Below, one piece after another: positions 4,441 to 39,209 of a stretch of DNA of 64,000 nt. Origin of the DNA: Lojkania enalia (Eukaryota > Ascomycota > Dothideomycetes > Pleosporales); the NCBI GenBank assembly GCA_010094045.1, contig ML986641.1, forward strand, positions 1 through 64,000, read 5' to 3'. Each line of letters opens with the position of its first letter. The stretch's first letter is position 1. A program made the position numbers and the translations under genes. The notes below the pieces were generated by a model. The model was not told the origin of the DNA. It did not search any database and saw only the letters and a list, made by a program, of their open reading frames with translations.

Positions 4441-5295
4441 GTGATTGTTACTTTAGGTATAGACGTTTCGCTATTTGAGCGCAATATCTTAGACTTGCAT
4501 TAGACGGCGTTAATAGACGGAAGTTGTGGGTTGCGCTGAATATAGATGCGCATGTGCTGAAATTGATTGCAGGACATAGTCTTATAGACCGTGAAAATTT
4601 TGCGATATAAGGGTATAGATCCTCATATCATTTACATCTTTGTTTCTACTTTGATACTCCGTTGTAATTTGTGGCTGGTTCGATGAGCTAGTTTCTCATT
4701 TTGGTTTGCAAGTTCCTTTCTGCTGGGGAAGGACTAACCCCTTGAGCTCGAGCTCGACGTTGACCGATTATTTACCTCGGTCACGCAATTCTACTGGGGA
4801 GGTTTTGTCCAAAAAAGGCACTCACTGTTGCTTTCGGAGATTTAGTGCTTCACTGGATTCTCCGCCACTGCCTTATTTATTTCTCGTGGATTTCTTCAAC
4901 TCCGACCTTTCTACTTCCCACCTCTTTCCTTCTTTACTCCTACCTTCAGCTTTATACTCACTCCCTCACTACTTTTACCACTTTCTCACACGCTTCTAAA
5001 TACGCGAGTATTTGCACCCTCAGAACGGATTTCTCCCAGTCTGGTTCAGCCGCCTGTCTCACGCCTGCGAGGTAAGTCGAAAGGGCTTGATTTAAGGCAC
5101 AGCACTCGCCACCATCAACCTCAATTTCCAGTCTCTTGGGGACTTTAAAAAGGCGCTCCTTTGCGATGCCGCCTCACCTGACATGATCCTCCAATGTCCC
5201 CGCCCTTATTTAATATCTCCGCCTTCTTCTTCCCCTTCCACTCCCACTCTTCTCATCTGACCCTTCTACTCAGACTGCACGCAGACAGTTTCTCA
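4441..5295. other. Intergenic: 3' UTR of NEW1-type gene and pyrimidine-rich leader of the next gene
   Basis: No ORF here shows recognisable domains. From about 4840 to 5290 the strand is strongly C/T-rich (CTTCTTC, CCTTC and CTCATC tracts), which is typical of fungal promoters and 5' leaders just upstream of a start codon. The next gene begins at 5296. Confidence 0.5.
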
Positions 5296-7336
5296 ATGAG
5301 GCTGTTCGCGCTCACCGGCGTGGTCCTCACGGGTCTTGTCTCGCTTGCTGCAGGCATTCCCTTATATGAGCGAGCTGATACTGTAAGATATTGCCGACTC
5401 TTGATCCCCCAACACTAGCAAATGGCGCTATGGCTACATAGTGATTACTAGCGCGCTTTAATACTCCAGAGGAAAATTTGACTAACAAATAGAGGATGTT
5501 CATCTGGACGACACATCGCTCGCCACCCATGCAACCGATTGCACTTATATGCATACCAAATGTGATACCGACCGCAAGACAGTTCTAATGTGTAATGCTG
5601 CCCATGAGTACGAACTCTACCAACGCTGCCCTGAGCCAAAATGTTGTCGATACGGTCTTCACGGCTACCCGGATTGCTACAGCCAGTGTGACCCTAATCT
5701 CCCACCGCTCGATGAAAACGTCGCTTTCACCACTCGTCGGACTACACCGGTTGCTCGTGGTGACGCTGATGATCTGGCAATTCGTGAGGAGCCTTTCCGG
5801 TTCGTCAAGTACGATAATACTCCTACGCTGGACGCTACCCTGGCAGCATTCATAGAATCTGCTGGACCACTTCTCAAACGGCAAGGATCAGGTCAGGAGG
5901 CCTACAAGCCAGGCACATATAAGTGTTTTGGGGAAAAGTCAATGGTCCTCCTATGCGATGCATATGGGAAATGGGTTAAATCTGCGAACTGCAAAGACTA
6001 CGGTGATTGTCGAGAAGGCCCCACGCCTGGAACCGCTTATCGCATAGGTCATCTTGAAAAACGGCAACGCACGCCAGGCACGTATAAGTATTGTGAAAAT
6101 AAGTTAATGGCCGTCGTATGTAGCGCCCAAGGGCATTGGCATATTTCTGCGAATTGCAAAGATTACGGCGATTGTCGAGAAGGGTCTATACCAGGAACAG
6201 CTTGTTGCAAAGGTTACCACTCCAAACGCGATGCTACTGCACTCGACAGCGTAACGACTCCGATCTATGATTCCACCATACACCTTGATGGACGCCAGGA
6301 ACCTGATATAGACTGCAGGCCTGGCACCTATGGGTGTAATGGAGCTCACACAGAAGTCCTTGTTTGCAGTTCTGACGGAAAATGGACTCAGTCTGCACAA
6401 TGCCGCGGCTCAACTTGTCGAGCGGGTCCTACGCCTGGGACAGCATATTGCCTAGGTCACCCTGAACGCGATGCCACCGTCCTAGCTCCCCTTGATGGTC
6501 CCGCCACTCCACATGAAGCACGCCAAGATTGGTGGGAGACCTGCCAACCAGGCACGTACACTTGTGGTCGGGATAATACGGCAATGCTTATATGCGGGCC
6601 CAAACGAATATGGATGTTTTCTGCTGAATGTAGCGGCAAAACGTGCGTCAAGGGACAAATAAGTGGAACCGCTTATTGCCAATCGAAACGAGATGTCACC
6701 ACTGCCGACGCCATCCTAGGTGCTGTTGAAGAGGCGAACAACCTATCCAAGAGACTAGAAAACACCCACTGTAATCCAGGGAAATACAGTTGCTCCAGCG
6801 GCAAATACGGGGTCTTAATGATAATGGTCTGCGACCACTTCGGGATATGGAAGCTCTCTACTACTTGCAATCGTGGCCAGAGATGCATATATGGGCCGAC
6901 GCCTAGAACTAATTTCTGCGCGGTCAAAAAACACGAGGCTCAACAAATCATCGACAAACGCAACTCAGGCGAACACAATTGCAACAATCGTTTATGGCTC
7001 ATGGTGTGCAGTCTCCTGGGGACGTGGACGCCCTCTGCAAAATGCTTCGACCTCTCTTGCAGCGGAGGTTCTATACCTGGAGCCGCTCAATGCTCGACTA
7101 ACAACAGACTTGATGGACGGCAGGGCGGCGACAGAGGCACGCTAGGCGACTTCATTTGCGACAAGGATAAGATGAAGCTGTATGCCTGCGGCCCGAGCAG
7201 CCAGTGGACACTCTCCGCTACCTGCGCGAGTGGATCATACCAAGAAGGCGTTATTCTAGGAGCTGCCTATTACAGACGAGAAGAGGATTCCGCAATCACA
7301 CCCTCTGTCCGTCGACGAAATAATGTAGATCAATAA
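5296..7336 (+). CDS. Secreted cysteine-rich tandem-repeat protein with Kex2-type dibasic sites
   Basis: Exon 1 (5296-5382) encodes a signal peptide, MRLFALTGVVLTGLVSLAAG. A 112-nt intron (5383-5494, branch CTAAC, end AG) joins in phase 0 to exon 2 (5495-7336), giving about 642 residues. After a divergent N-terminal cysteine unit there are seven units of about 50-65 residues. Their pattern is C-x-PGTYxC, then VxxCxxxGxW, then SAxC, then CxxGxxPGTAYC. Units are separated by KR or R-containing sites (LLKRQ, EKRQ, SKRD, SKRD, SKRL, DKRN, DGRQ). Cysteines are lost in the first two and the last units, so copies decay unevenly. The layout suggests a Kex2-processed precursor releasing several small disulfide-rich domains, or a multidomain wall or effector protein. 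I do not recognise a named family, and function is unknown. The signal peptide, repeats and dibasic sites are seen directly; processing is inferred. Confidence 0.85.
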
Positions 7337-34672: not shown

Positions 34673-36290
34673 ATGGTATCCTCCGACAAGCCGACGAAGG
34701 AGACGCCTAAACAGCAGGCAACTAAGTCAAATCCTGAACAAGCAACTACCCAGAGCCCGCCAGTGGACATTACAGCGGCATCAACGTCTGACCATATTGC
34801 GACGTCGAAACGAACAGTCGAACAGCAGACTCCCGAAACATCTAAGCTCAAGCCTCGTGGCTCTGCTCCTGGTTCCGCGTCAGGGCCTGTATCTGGGTCT
34901 AGGTCGCCTTCGGTGGCACCATCAGGGACAGAGGCAGGAACAAGGTTCAGACCTAGTACAGCCGCCTCAACTGGCAGAGTTGTGCCAAATGGTGATAGGT
35001 ATTTCCGCTCTCGCCGGGCTCGCAAAGAAGACATTCAACAGCCATGGTTGGATAAGAAAGATCCAAGAGATAAATGGGTAACGATAATTCCTCTGGTCGG
35101 GTTGATTTTGGGTCTCGGGTTGGCGGGGCTCCTCGTCTGGGATGGCTTTAGATCTGTTTCCAACCATCAATATTGCCTACTTCTAGACGAAGACTTCTCA
35201 TATTGGAATGGCAAGGTCTGGATGAGAGAAGTGCAGGCCGGCGGATTTGGGCAAGTATACCTCATCTATTCTACTTACTGCGCTAATCAAGTTCTACAGA
35301 CAAGGCCAATTTGAAATGACAACAAGTTCGGAAGACAACGTGTTTCTTGCCGATAATACCCTCGTCATACAACCAACTCTTCAGGATGAGGCTTTCATCG
35401 AATACAACAACGTGATAGACTTGCGCGGAAATGGCTGTGTTGGGGAGTGGTACGACTGCATTGCGACCACTAACGTCACGAATGGAACCATCATCAATCC
35501 CGTAAACTCTGGGCGGATTAATACCAAGCTTGGTAGTTCTATTAAGTTTGGCCGTGTTGAAGTTGTTGCGAAACTTCCTGTCGGAGACTGGTTATGGCCT
35601 TTTATCATAATGTTGCCTACCGAGAGCAAGTACGGACCGTGGCCGAGGTCGGGTCAGATCGATATTATGCAATCGCGCGGCAATGACTATAAATATGAGC
35701 AGGGTGGTAACAACGTTGTCAGCAGCACGTTGCATTTCGGGCCTAATACGATAAATGATGGTTGGTGGCGCAATAATGTCAAGCGCTCCGCTTCTCGTAC
35801 CACGTTCTCTAATGATTACCATACTTTCGGTGTTGAGGCAAGTTGTCCTAGCCTGTCACTGCTGTTCCCGCCTAACCTGATGTAGTGGAGCGAGAAGTAT
35901 ATATTTACCTACATTGGTACCCGCCTCATGCAAGTTATGTACACGCGCTTCGACCAGCCATTCTGGAAGTACGGCCAATTTCCTCTCTTCGAGGCTAATG
36001 GCACGGCCCTTCAAGATCCGTGGAGTTGGACTGAAGTTAATGCCACGCCATTCGATGAGGACTTCTACCTCGTGCTCGGTGTCAGCGTCGGAGCTACGAA
36101 TGGTTGGTTCAAGGATGGCAAATCAGCAAAGCCATGGATTGACAGTAGCCCTACGGCGAAGCAGAGCTTTTGGAAGGCGAGGGAGGATTGGTATCCCACA
36201 TGGAGAGATCAGGGTTATATGCAAGTCAAGAGCGTAAAGATGTGGCAGCAAGGTGGATATCGTGGTTGCTATGCGGAAGAAGAGGATTAG
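34673..36290 (+). CDS. Type II membrane-anchored GH16-like beta-glucan protein, catalytic glutamates replaced by glutamine
   Basis: There are three exons: 34673-35250, 35300-35837 and 35886-36290, giving about 506 residues. Both introns (49 and 48 nt) must start with GCAAGT rather than GT. No GT site gives an open join, and the GC sites restore GGFGQGQFEM and HTFGVEWSEKY. An N-terminal Ser/Thr/Pro-rich cytosolic region (about 1-135) precedes one TM helix (about 140-160, IIPLVGLILGLGLAGLLVW) and then a GH16 fold. In GH16 enzymes the active strand reads E-I-D-I-x-E. Here it is SGQIDIMQSRGN, with both Glu changed to Gln (CAG, CAA) and Asp kept. WPAIWMLP is also changed to WPFIIMLP. I infer a non-hydrolytic glucan-binding protein at the cell surface rather than a glucanase. 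Confidence 0.86.
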
Positions 36291-36738: not shown

Positions 36739-37622
36739 CTAGTCCTTCCCGTTGTTGATAATATTCCTTAATACCGACCATGCCTCTAGCTTTTTGGCCT
36801 CCTCGTGAAGTTTCTCAAAGTTTCTTTCATCATCTATTGCAATACTCCAACAACTCAGGTTGTCTCTAGCAATCGCATTGTCGATATCCTGCTTGTTCTT
36901 TTCGTATTCGCAAAATCTTTGTTCGAAGCGTGTGGCATCATCATCACCTCTCGCACGACTGATAAACCATTTCCTCGCAATGTCTTTGTTACAATGGATA
37001 GAAATTACCCCGGATCGATTATTTGATTTCCAGTTAGTCTGAACAGCCGTTTTGAAGGTCTCCCATTGTGTAGCATCTCGTGGAAAACCGTCGACGAGAA
37101 CCACGCCAGGAGAAGAACCAGATTCTAGCATATCATTTCGTCTGAAAATTCTCTGTTCTAGGTACTTGCACAGAATATCTCGCGGGACCAGCAACCCATT
37201 CTCCAGATTATATTTGATGATTTGAATATCCTGGTCCGCCAGATTTACTCGCGCCCTAGCAGATTCAGAGTTTGCGGTGAGGTCCCGAAGTTCGTTGCCG
37301 ACGCCAACATAATTGAATAAGTACTTTTCGCCCAATTTCCTACATAAAGTACTCTTCCCCGCTGCCGGTGGTCCTAGCAACCATCAGTCTTGTACTGAAT
37401 CCGCAACTTGACCACGCTCTCACCTAAAATGAACACCAGCACTAGTTCAAGTGGTGGTGATGCCTGTTGTAGTAGATTTTGCGTGGCTTTATTATCGTTG
37501 TCCATCGTCTGTACCATCGTGATGGACTTCTGGTTGTATATCTGTGGAGATTTTCGCAGGTGACGAAGTACATATAGATTTTCAATACTAGGGAAGCAAA
37601 CAAACGCTGGAGATGGAAACAT
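36739..37622 (-). CDS. Nucleoside monophosphate kinase (adenylate/UMP-CMP kinase family, short LID)
   Basis: Minus strand; exon 1 (37622-37424) and exon 2 (37373-36739) are joined over a 50-nt GTGAGA...TAG intron. The junction restores the P-loop LVFILGPPAAGKSTL. Features in order: P-loop, NMP-site region VGVGNELRDL, VVLVDGFPRD, and a short LID with RARGDDDATRFEQRF followed by EYEKNKQDI. The short LID and EQRFxEYxKN layout fit UMP-CMP/AK1-type kinases. The SGR arginine normally in the LID is not evident, so specificity is uncertain. The start is ambiguous: ATG 37622 gives 277 residues with an N-terminal basic stretch (RHLRKSPQIYNQKS) that could target mitochondria. ATG 37517 gives 242 residues. 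It lies 436 bp downstream of viperin on the same strand. I infer it may supply or recycle CDP/CTP for viperin. Confidence 0.82.
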
Positions 37623-38058
37623 TGGCCAGCTCTTTCTCGTCAATTCCAGCTACCATCCATTTTAATCTACCGGCATTGCCGCAAGTGTGAATGCATGCGT
37701 CTTAGGATTTGCGGCTCAAGACAAACGTAGAAGTGGTTTGTCAAACATAATTGGTAGGAACTTTCGTGCACATGCGTAGAAAGTAGCGGACGATGAGGAG
37801 AGAAAGCATCGAGACAGCAAAATTGTAGTAAATTAATGGAAAAATCGTCAGCTCTATTATTTTATATAGGGTCATCATTTCTTATTATGATAGTTAGAAT
37901 CTGCTGTCCGCCGTAGCTTGCTGGACTTTTCTAGGCAATCCTTGTTACTGGCGACTTTTGGAAATGAACAGTTCCTCTCTCTAAATAGTTAAATCAAATC
38001 AATCAAGTGTATCATTTTCCTCTATGCCGCTACCGCCCAGATATCTCAACGTCTAGTG
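37623..38058. promoter_or_regulatory. Intergenic between viperin and the nucleotide kinase
   Basis: 436 bases separate the viperin stop (minus strand) from the kinase start, so the two genes are tandem with their own promoter space rather than a fused transcript. A/T-rich around 37830-37900 (TTATTTTATATAGG). No specific regulatory motif was identified. Confidence 0.4.
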
Positions 38059-39209
38059 CTAGAATTCGAGCTCACTTAGATCAATTCCTTCCAACCCACC
38101 GCCGCAACCCTTCTTTCCATCTATATTAGCCTCTCGACCCCAATCATATTCACCCCCTCTTGCTTTGAATGCCATCTCATCATAGTCAACTTCGTTCAGT
38201 GCATTCTGTACGCCAACTTCCAAGATAGGTTTCGAGGCCTTGCTTTTGTTCTCAGGGGAAAGGAATCGCAAGTGCTCGTCAAGAATCTAGCCACCACATT
38301 AGGATCTCAGCACCCCTGAAAGCAAAAAGATGAAGTACTCACCAGATAGCTGTTTCTCATCAGTGAGTTTGGTTCCGGCGTAAATCCCTTGACATCCTTA
38401 TGCTTCTCACAGAACGTCTTGAACTGCTCATCCGTAATCACCATCTTCCCAGCATCCCTCATCCTCTTTTCATTATCATTCTCTCCCTCTACAACCAATA
38501 CCTGGAACACCTTCCAGCGAAACGGATTCAAACTCTTCACTACATCCACCATATCTTCTTCCCAATTCAAACTGCAGACAACAGTGTTCAACTTGAACTT
38601 AATATCAAATTCATGGCACCAGTCTCTGATCTGAAACAGCTGAGCTACGTTGTCGAATGGTTCTTTGGTCCCCCTATCAGCGCGTCCGATCTTCCGATTC
38701 GTTTGCTCATGAAACGAGTCGCAAGAAATCGCCAAAATATCAATGTACTTGCCCCATTCCTTCAGCCAATTCTCAGTCACTTTCGTGCCGTTCGAAACGA
38801 TGCTCACGCTCTCGAGCTTCAACTCTTCCTTCGCATACTGGCACATCTTGCCAAGAGGCCTATGATACAGGAATGGCTCACCGCCAGCGAAATTGAGCTT
38901 TCGCATCCCGGATTCCTTGAGCAGCTTTAGAGCCCTCTGAGCGTCCTCTAGCTTTGCCACATAGGAGGTAGTTTCTGTGTGGAAGCAGAAACCGCACTCG
39001 GCATTGCATTTTCGCGTGAAGTGGTAGTTGACGCTGACGGGAATTGTATGGCCGAGAATTGTCTTGCGGCACCATGCTTTGATGTCAGAACGTATCGATG
39101 GATGCCAATATAGGTAGGCAGCGGTTGGGAGGGCGATGCCGATGGTGGTGAGGGCCGCGGCGGGAGATGTGAGGACACGGGAGAGCAGTGTTTTGACTAG
39201 GGGTGCCAT
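38059..39209 (-). CDS. RSAD2: Viperin-like radical SAM protein (ddhCTP synthase family)
   Basis: Minus strand; exon 1 (39209-38343) and exon 2 (38286-38059) are joined over a 56-nt intron in phase 0. The junction restores the conserved SYLILDEHLRFLSPE. The protein is 364 residues, matching animal viperin length. A hydrophobic N-terminal segment (about 12-35) could anchor it to membranes. The [4Fe-4S] motif is CNAECGFC (C68, C72, C75). It is followed by LNFAGGEPFL (SAM GGEP, 109-112), VSIVSNGTKV and DILAISCDSF. After exon 2 the tail KPILEVGVQNAL and FKARGGEYDWGRE aligns with the viperin C-terminal extension. Viperins convert CTP to 3'-deoxy-3',4'-didehydro-CTP by radical chemistry, an antiviral chain terminator. 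The neighbouring NMP kinase fits a nucleotide-supply partner. In fungi the role is not established; mycovirus restriction is a reasonable inference only. Confidence 0.93.

Follow-up and report, generated by a model that had tools for sequence, protein, structure and literature searches.

A viperin gene and a linked nucleoside-monophosphate kinase of a distinct fungal clade in Lojkania enalia

The question raised by the locus described here is whether a viperin gene and the nucleoside-monophosphate (NMP) kinase gene next to it in the ascomycete Lojkania enalia belong together functionally. Enzymes of the viperin family are known to produce antiviral nucleotides. The window analysed is a stretch of 64,000 nucleotides (GenBank assembly GCA_010094045.1, contig ML986641.1, positions 1 to 64,000; contig C64 in our numbering, 257,596 bases). 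A first-pass annotation had placed the two genes at 36739..39209 and likened them to the vertebrate RSAD2-CMPK2 pair. The pair as such was confirmed, both genes being intact and on the minus strand. The kinase belongs to a distinct clade, and the two genes share contigs in several fungi; from this we infer, as a rather probable interpretation, a functional pair of viperin and a dedicated NMP kinase. The features are listed below, P0009 and P0001 being the public protein models of the viperin and the kinase, respectively.

38343 to 39209, minus strand: viperin exon 1, with the radical S-adenosylmethionine (SAM) core, CNAECGFC, GGEP and a hydrophobic N-terminus
38287 to 38342, minus strand: viperin intron, 56 nt, GTGAGT...TAG; the spliced product matches P0009 across the junction
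38059 to 38286, minus strand: viperin exon 2, including the stop, with ILDE and the C-terminal extension ending in LEF
37518 to 38058, minus strand: interval from the viperin stop to the annotated kinase ATG, 541 bp (436 bp with the ATG at 37622)
37424 to 37517, minus strand: kinase exon 1, from the start of the public model, with the strand preceding the P-loop
37374 to 37423, minus strand: kinase intron, 50 nt, GTGAGA...TAG; the spliced protein is identical to P0001
36739 to 37373, minus strand: kinase exon 2, with the P-loop GPPAAGKS completed across the splice, DGFPR and the short LID RARGDDD

The spliced viperin has 364 aa and a single intron (two exons), and its description as an intact homologue holds: CNAECGFC and GGEP are present, while SYLILDE and the C-terminus appear only after splicing. 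The family model NF038283 was passed (260.5 bits, cut-off 180, E 1.5e-77); with the stricter TIGR04278 the E value was 1.5e-114, but the score of 382.6 bits lay under the cut-off of 450. Among the best 120 of 2702 matches, CxxxCxxC occurred in 120/120, GGEP in 119/120 and a region like SYLILDE, the tyrosine of which has a recognised role, in 84/120, and the window viperin has all three. The C-terminal tripeptide [LIM][DES][WF] is the signal for iron-sulfur loading through the cytosolic iron-sulfur assembly (CIA) machinery. LEF fits this pattern, as do the C-termini of 87 of the same 120 relatives; the other 33, some of which are truncated models, do not. The closest solved structures were viperin-like enzymes, with 7n7i and 6b4c at the top, and the viperin entry of PMC8124187, which covers Mus musculus and Trichoderma virens, includes 6B4C. 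The public model P0009 shows 100% identity across 87% of the window model. Its N-terminus differs from that of the open reading frame (ORF) at 39209-38059 and lacks the hydrophobic N-terminal segment encoded there.

The kinase gene lies downstream of the viperin gene on the same strand and has two exons; its spliced product of 242 aa is letter for letter the public L. enalia protein P0001. The gap of 436 bp reported previously applies with the in-frame upstream ATG at 37622 and becomes 541 bp with the public start at 37517. Use of the upstream ATG (in the frame 37374-37643, minus strand) would lengthen the kinase by 35 residues. The possible mitochondrial presequence that had been noted is encoded in this extension only and is doubtful. 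Most of the 16 aligned kinase relatives begin near the public start, P0133 being longer with a different sequence. The N-termini of P0135, P0137 and P0140 are longer as well, and N-termini therefore vary among relatives. The intact P-loop (Walker A, GPPAAGKS) and the short LID (RARGDDD, judged by eye to be shorter than that of UMP/CMP kinases) were both borne out. Residues G37, K38, R61, R130, R171, R173, D176 and R184 are invariant across the 16 aligned clade members, and these columns are presumed to have catalytic roles.

Relatives of both genes were compared in other fungi using the best 120 of 5501 matches for the kinase and the best 120 of 2702 for viperin. Linkage was judged by the same species and equal-sized contigs, i.e., at contig scale, the distance being measured in the window only; five kinase rows lacking a contig size were left out. 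All six named species common to both listings carried kinase and viperin on equal-sized contigs, and a seventh match among those listed was found on a further contig of 17,870 bases. The contigs bearing both genes include sizes of 63.6 and 17.9 kb, and the species are taken to span Dothideomycetes, Leotiomycetes and Sordariomycetes. Lojkania and Lophiotrema were in the search profile, and the other four linked species were outside it. For the co-occurrence within 5 kb that had been proposed as a check, the evidence is at the level of shared contigs. Linkage beyond this one genome suggests that the two genes work together. As a side observation, two different viperins of Mycena vitilis (P0063 and P0105) are on equal-sized contigs (164,258) and could be a linked duplicate.

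Several points weigh against a functional pair. Six of the 12 named fungi in the kinase listing (Plenodomus biglobosus, P. lindquistii, Alternaria dauci, A. conjuncta, A. viburni, and Acephala macrosclerotiorum) had no viperin among the best 120 viperin matches, most of the viperins listed, including those of all named fungi other than the six linked species, had no kinase among the best 120 kinase matches, and the substrate of the kinase is a prediction. However, a partner missing from these listings is not proof of absence, because each listing ends at its best 120 matches and the search needs shared words. The kinase could also have a role of its own and sit near viperin incidentally in some lineages. 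The kinases of Alternaria and Plenodomus listed without viperin would agree with this, and so would the far faster change of the kinase (39% identity between Lojkania and Lophiotrema, compared with 73% for viperin). Incidental linkage is nevertheless regarded as improbable, given the equal-sized contigs in all of the shared named species across three classes, some of these contigs being short.

Which family does the kinase belong to? It matched PF00406 (53.5 bits, E 3.9e-14), and its predicted structure (model predicted local distance difference test, pLDDT, 85.4) has the NMP-kinase fold, with UMP/CMP and adenylate kinases nearly tied among the structure matches, the fold being common to both; the P-loop, DGFPR and the LID arginines are all present. 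These features would also be expected of an ordinary UMP/CMP or adenylate kinase. However, the window kinase scored 71.6 bits with the UMP/CMP kinase model TIGR01359, far from the cut-off of 207.6, while a Ura6-like gene of the same genome, on contig C47, scored 223.3 bits. All seven viperin-linked kinases fell into one fungal group (support 100/98) in a tree of 52 rows, together with those of Acephala, Plenodomus and Alternaria and further rows, apart from the UMP/CMP kinases, including the C47 gene. A tree of 25 rows reproduced the group (100/98), and a constraint uniting Ura6 with four linked kinases, rows that were specified once the first tree had been seen, was rejected in the approximately unbiased (AU) test (p-AU 6.5e-6). 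The trees hold one fungal Ura6 only, leave out most animal and plant kinase rows as well as several odd long rows, and gave warnings of long branches. The kinase did not group with any adenylate or UMP/CMP kinase included in the trees. Two observations that the first-pass annotation would have counted against the pair, clustering as an ordinary adenylate kinase and absence of the kinase from the side of viperin in related genomes, were looked for and not borne out, the second at contig level. The clade to which the kinase belongs is fungal and changes fast; it branches next to the UMP/CMP kinases and is distinct from the Ura6-like gene of the same genome. The linked kinases share 32-53% identity pairwise, not far above their 29-39% to the own Ura6, and the viperins of those pairs share 56-73%. 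An ordinary kinase is therefore very unlikely; its identification as the housekeeping UMP/CMP kinase was rejected by the C47 gene, the separate clade and the AU test, in agreement with the previous statement that it is not simply that enzyme.

Orthology with CMPK2, which the position beside viperin would invite, is considered extremely unlikely. CMPK2 carries a thymidylate-kinase domain and is mitochondrial in mammals, according to the accessible part of PMC9132166, whereas no match to the thymidylate-kinase family PF02223 was found in the window kinase at E<=0.001. Among seven kinase relatives searched at E<=0.1, the sole match was P0002, with 14.2 bits, under the cut-off of 27. In favour of orthology, the precomputed domains of the clade member P0163 are PF02223 and PF00406, which is likewise the case in several plant and fish UMP-CMP kinases. 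The kinship with CMPK2 was rejected for want of a PF02223 match in the window kinase, and the parallel is functional at most.

The likeliest conclusion is that, in some fungi, viperin receives its nucleotides through a kinase of a different family. The kinase would phosphorylate UMP and/or CMP, its predicted substrates, and this activity would supply CTP and UTP to viperin; viperin is predicted to turn these into chain-terminating 3'-deoxy-3',4'-didehydro (ddh) nucleotides, which would probably act against the RNA viruses of the fungus. The antiviral module proposed in the first-pass annotation is plausible. Alternatively, the kinase could act downstream of viperin, returning ddh-nucleoside monophosphates from degraded terminated RNA towards the triphosphate, or tuning their level. 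The same anatomy and linkage fit this too, and the linked kinases, with 29-39% identity to the own Ura6, would represent a second, divergent enzyme. Such an enzyme may have a special substrate, because the C47 gene presumably already provides UMP/CMP kinase activity. However, the fold and core motifs are conventional and nothing in the tests made points to a pocket for ddh-nucleotides, and we regard a downstream role as unlikely. More speculatively, several fungal classes could keep a dedicated, fast-changing viperin-associated kinase whose recruitment was independent of both CMPK2 and VakA, a kinase found with prokaryotic viperins, and whose true substrate is viperin-specific, e.g., a ddh-nucleoside monophosphate. 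This would be a separate origin of an antiviral module aimed at mycoviruses, and it is offered tentatively, as a possibility of modest weight. Whether the nucleotides are supplied or processed, a kinase of a separate family sharing contigs with viperin would make this a repeatedly selected need.

The surroundings of the pair are ordinary as far as Pfam matches are concerned: diphthamide synthesis (40422), D-serine dehydratase-like (28822), CYTH (31591), amidase (24083), CLN3 (53059) and 6PF2K (61000). The ORF at 35247 had no Pfam match; the stretch at 34.7-36.3 kb is assumed by us to be a GH16 glucanase. Only one other viperin-like stretch was found in the genome, on the minus strand of contig C142 (101.6-102.4 kb; L022, ~4650-5420), with 49% identity over the first part; a weaker match of 54.1 bits on C73 is probably MoaA. 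The reading frame of the C142 stretch is broken and no C-terminal part was found when looked for there, and it therefore looks like a relic. It adjoins an AAA ATPase ORF, presumably BCS1-like. UMP-kinase-like stretches were also seen directly behind a stretch that we read as HD-domain-like, in C142 (L021, 2628-3290), where the P-loop is altered, and in C53 at 234.3-234.9 kb (L008/L023), where internal stops are present.

Viperin-kinase linkage as such is already known, eukaryotic viperins being reportedly linked to nucleotide kinases (Shomar et al. 2024), and any novelty would be limited to the fungal kinase clade. The literature search turned up no account of a kinase linked to viperin in fungi among the sources within reach, to which key subscription papers did not belong. 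The evolution of eukaryotic viperins is covered in PMC10732462, in the accessible main text of which 'kinase' and 'CMPK2' do not occur, and in the accessible part of PMC10089162, on the yeast L-A virus, viperin is named only in the reference list.

How, then, does the fungal pair compare with known systems? Eukaryotic viperins are said by Shomar et al. 2024 to keep partner genes by genetic linkage, notably nucleotide kinases, and the fungal pair is the same kind of linkage. The UMP/CMP kinase family (yeast uridylate kinase, Dictyostelium, human) shares the fold and motifs and gave the best profile and structure matches of the fungal kinase, which differs in its separate clade, its shorter LID by eye and its score far under the TIGR01359 cut-off. 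In the vertebrate RSAD2-CMPK2 pair, as in the fungal one, viperin adjoins an NMP kinase, and CMPK2 is described as maintaining substrate levels for viperin (PMC9132166, accessible part). However, the two adjacent genes in chicken run in opposite directions (same source) and CMPK2 has the thymidylate-kinase domain, whereas the fungal genes run in the same direction and the kinase has the adenylate kinase (ADK)/UMP-CMP fold. The likeness therefore looks convergent, the kinase families being different.

Among prokaryotes, 15% of bacterial viperin genes adjoin a CMPK2-like kinase, and CMPK2 is of separate bacterial origin, according to the accessible part of PMC11249213. We sampled 36 loci from archaea and bacteria (7 + 29), 35 of which had a viperin ORF; neighbour kinases were picked by eye, through a motif that they share, from the ORFs of 140-420 aa lying no more than 3 kb away. 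A P-loop kinase stood directly beside viperin in six of the 35, all archaeal (L064, L066, L068, L070, L081 and L082; L064, L068 and L081 have two viperin ORF matches each). All six neighbours matched AAA_17, and the two tested against the PADLOC profile of VakA matched it (E 5.8e-25 and 9.3e-43; 86.7 and 144.6 bits). Under default filters and a threshold of E<=1, the ORFs of at least 100 aa in these 36 loci yielded no ADK-type gene beside viperin, seven of the loci also being scanned at E<=10. Control rows that were not part of the ADK-type profile scored 125-264 bits; when the filters were switched off, the six archaeal neighbours scored 3.7-12.5 bits (best E 0.0028). The window kinase did not match VakA at E<=0.01, and the other six linked kinases gave 19.0, 23.7, 15.6 and 24.5 bits or, in two cases, no match. 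The VakA profile matched 10/37 rows of set A4, the best being the plant UMP-CMP kinase P0167 (E 8.4e-8; 31.0 bits, above every linked fungal kinase), and likeness to VakA is therefore general to these kinases. A profile built from the six archaeal neighbours gave at most 2.9 bits, with the window kinase not among its matches. Descent from archaeal VakA was rejected on these scores. The pVip-VakA pair and the fungal pair are alike in that viperin stands directly beside a small P-loop kinase, but the archaeal neighbours match AAA_17 and, in the two tested, VakA, which the fungal kinases match weakly or not at all. Since the fungal kinase is by these tests neither CMPK2 nor VakA, the pairings look convergent, and a partner family that differs from those of both vertebrate and archaeal viperins makes this pair suitable for genetic and enzymatic study.
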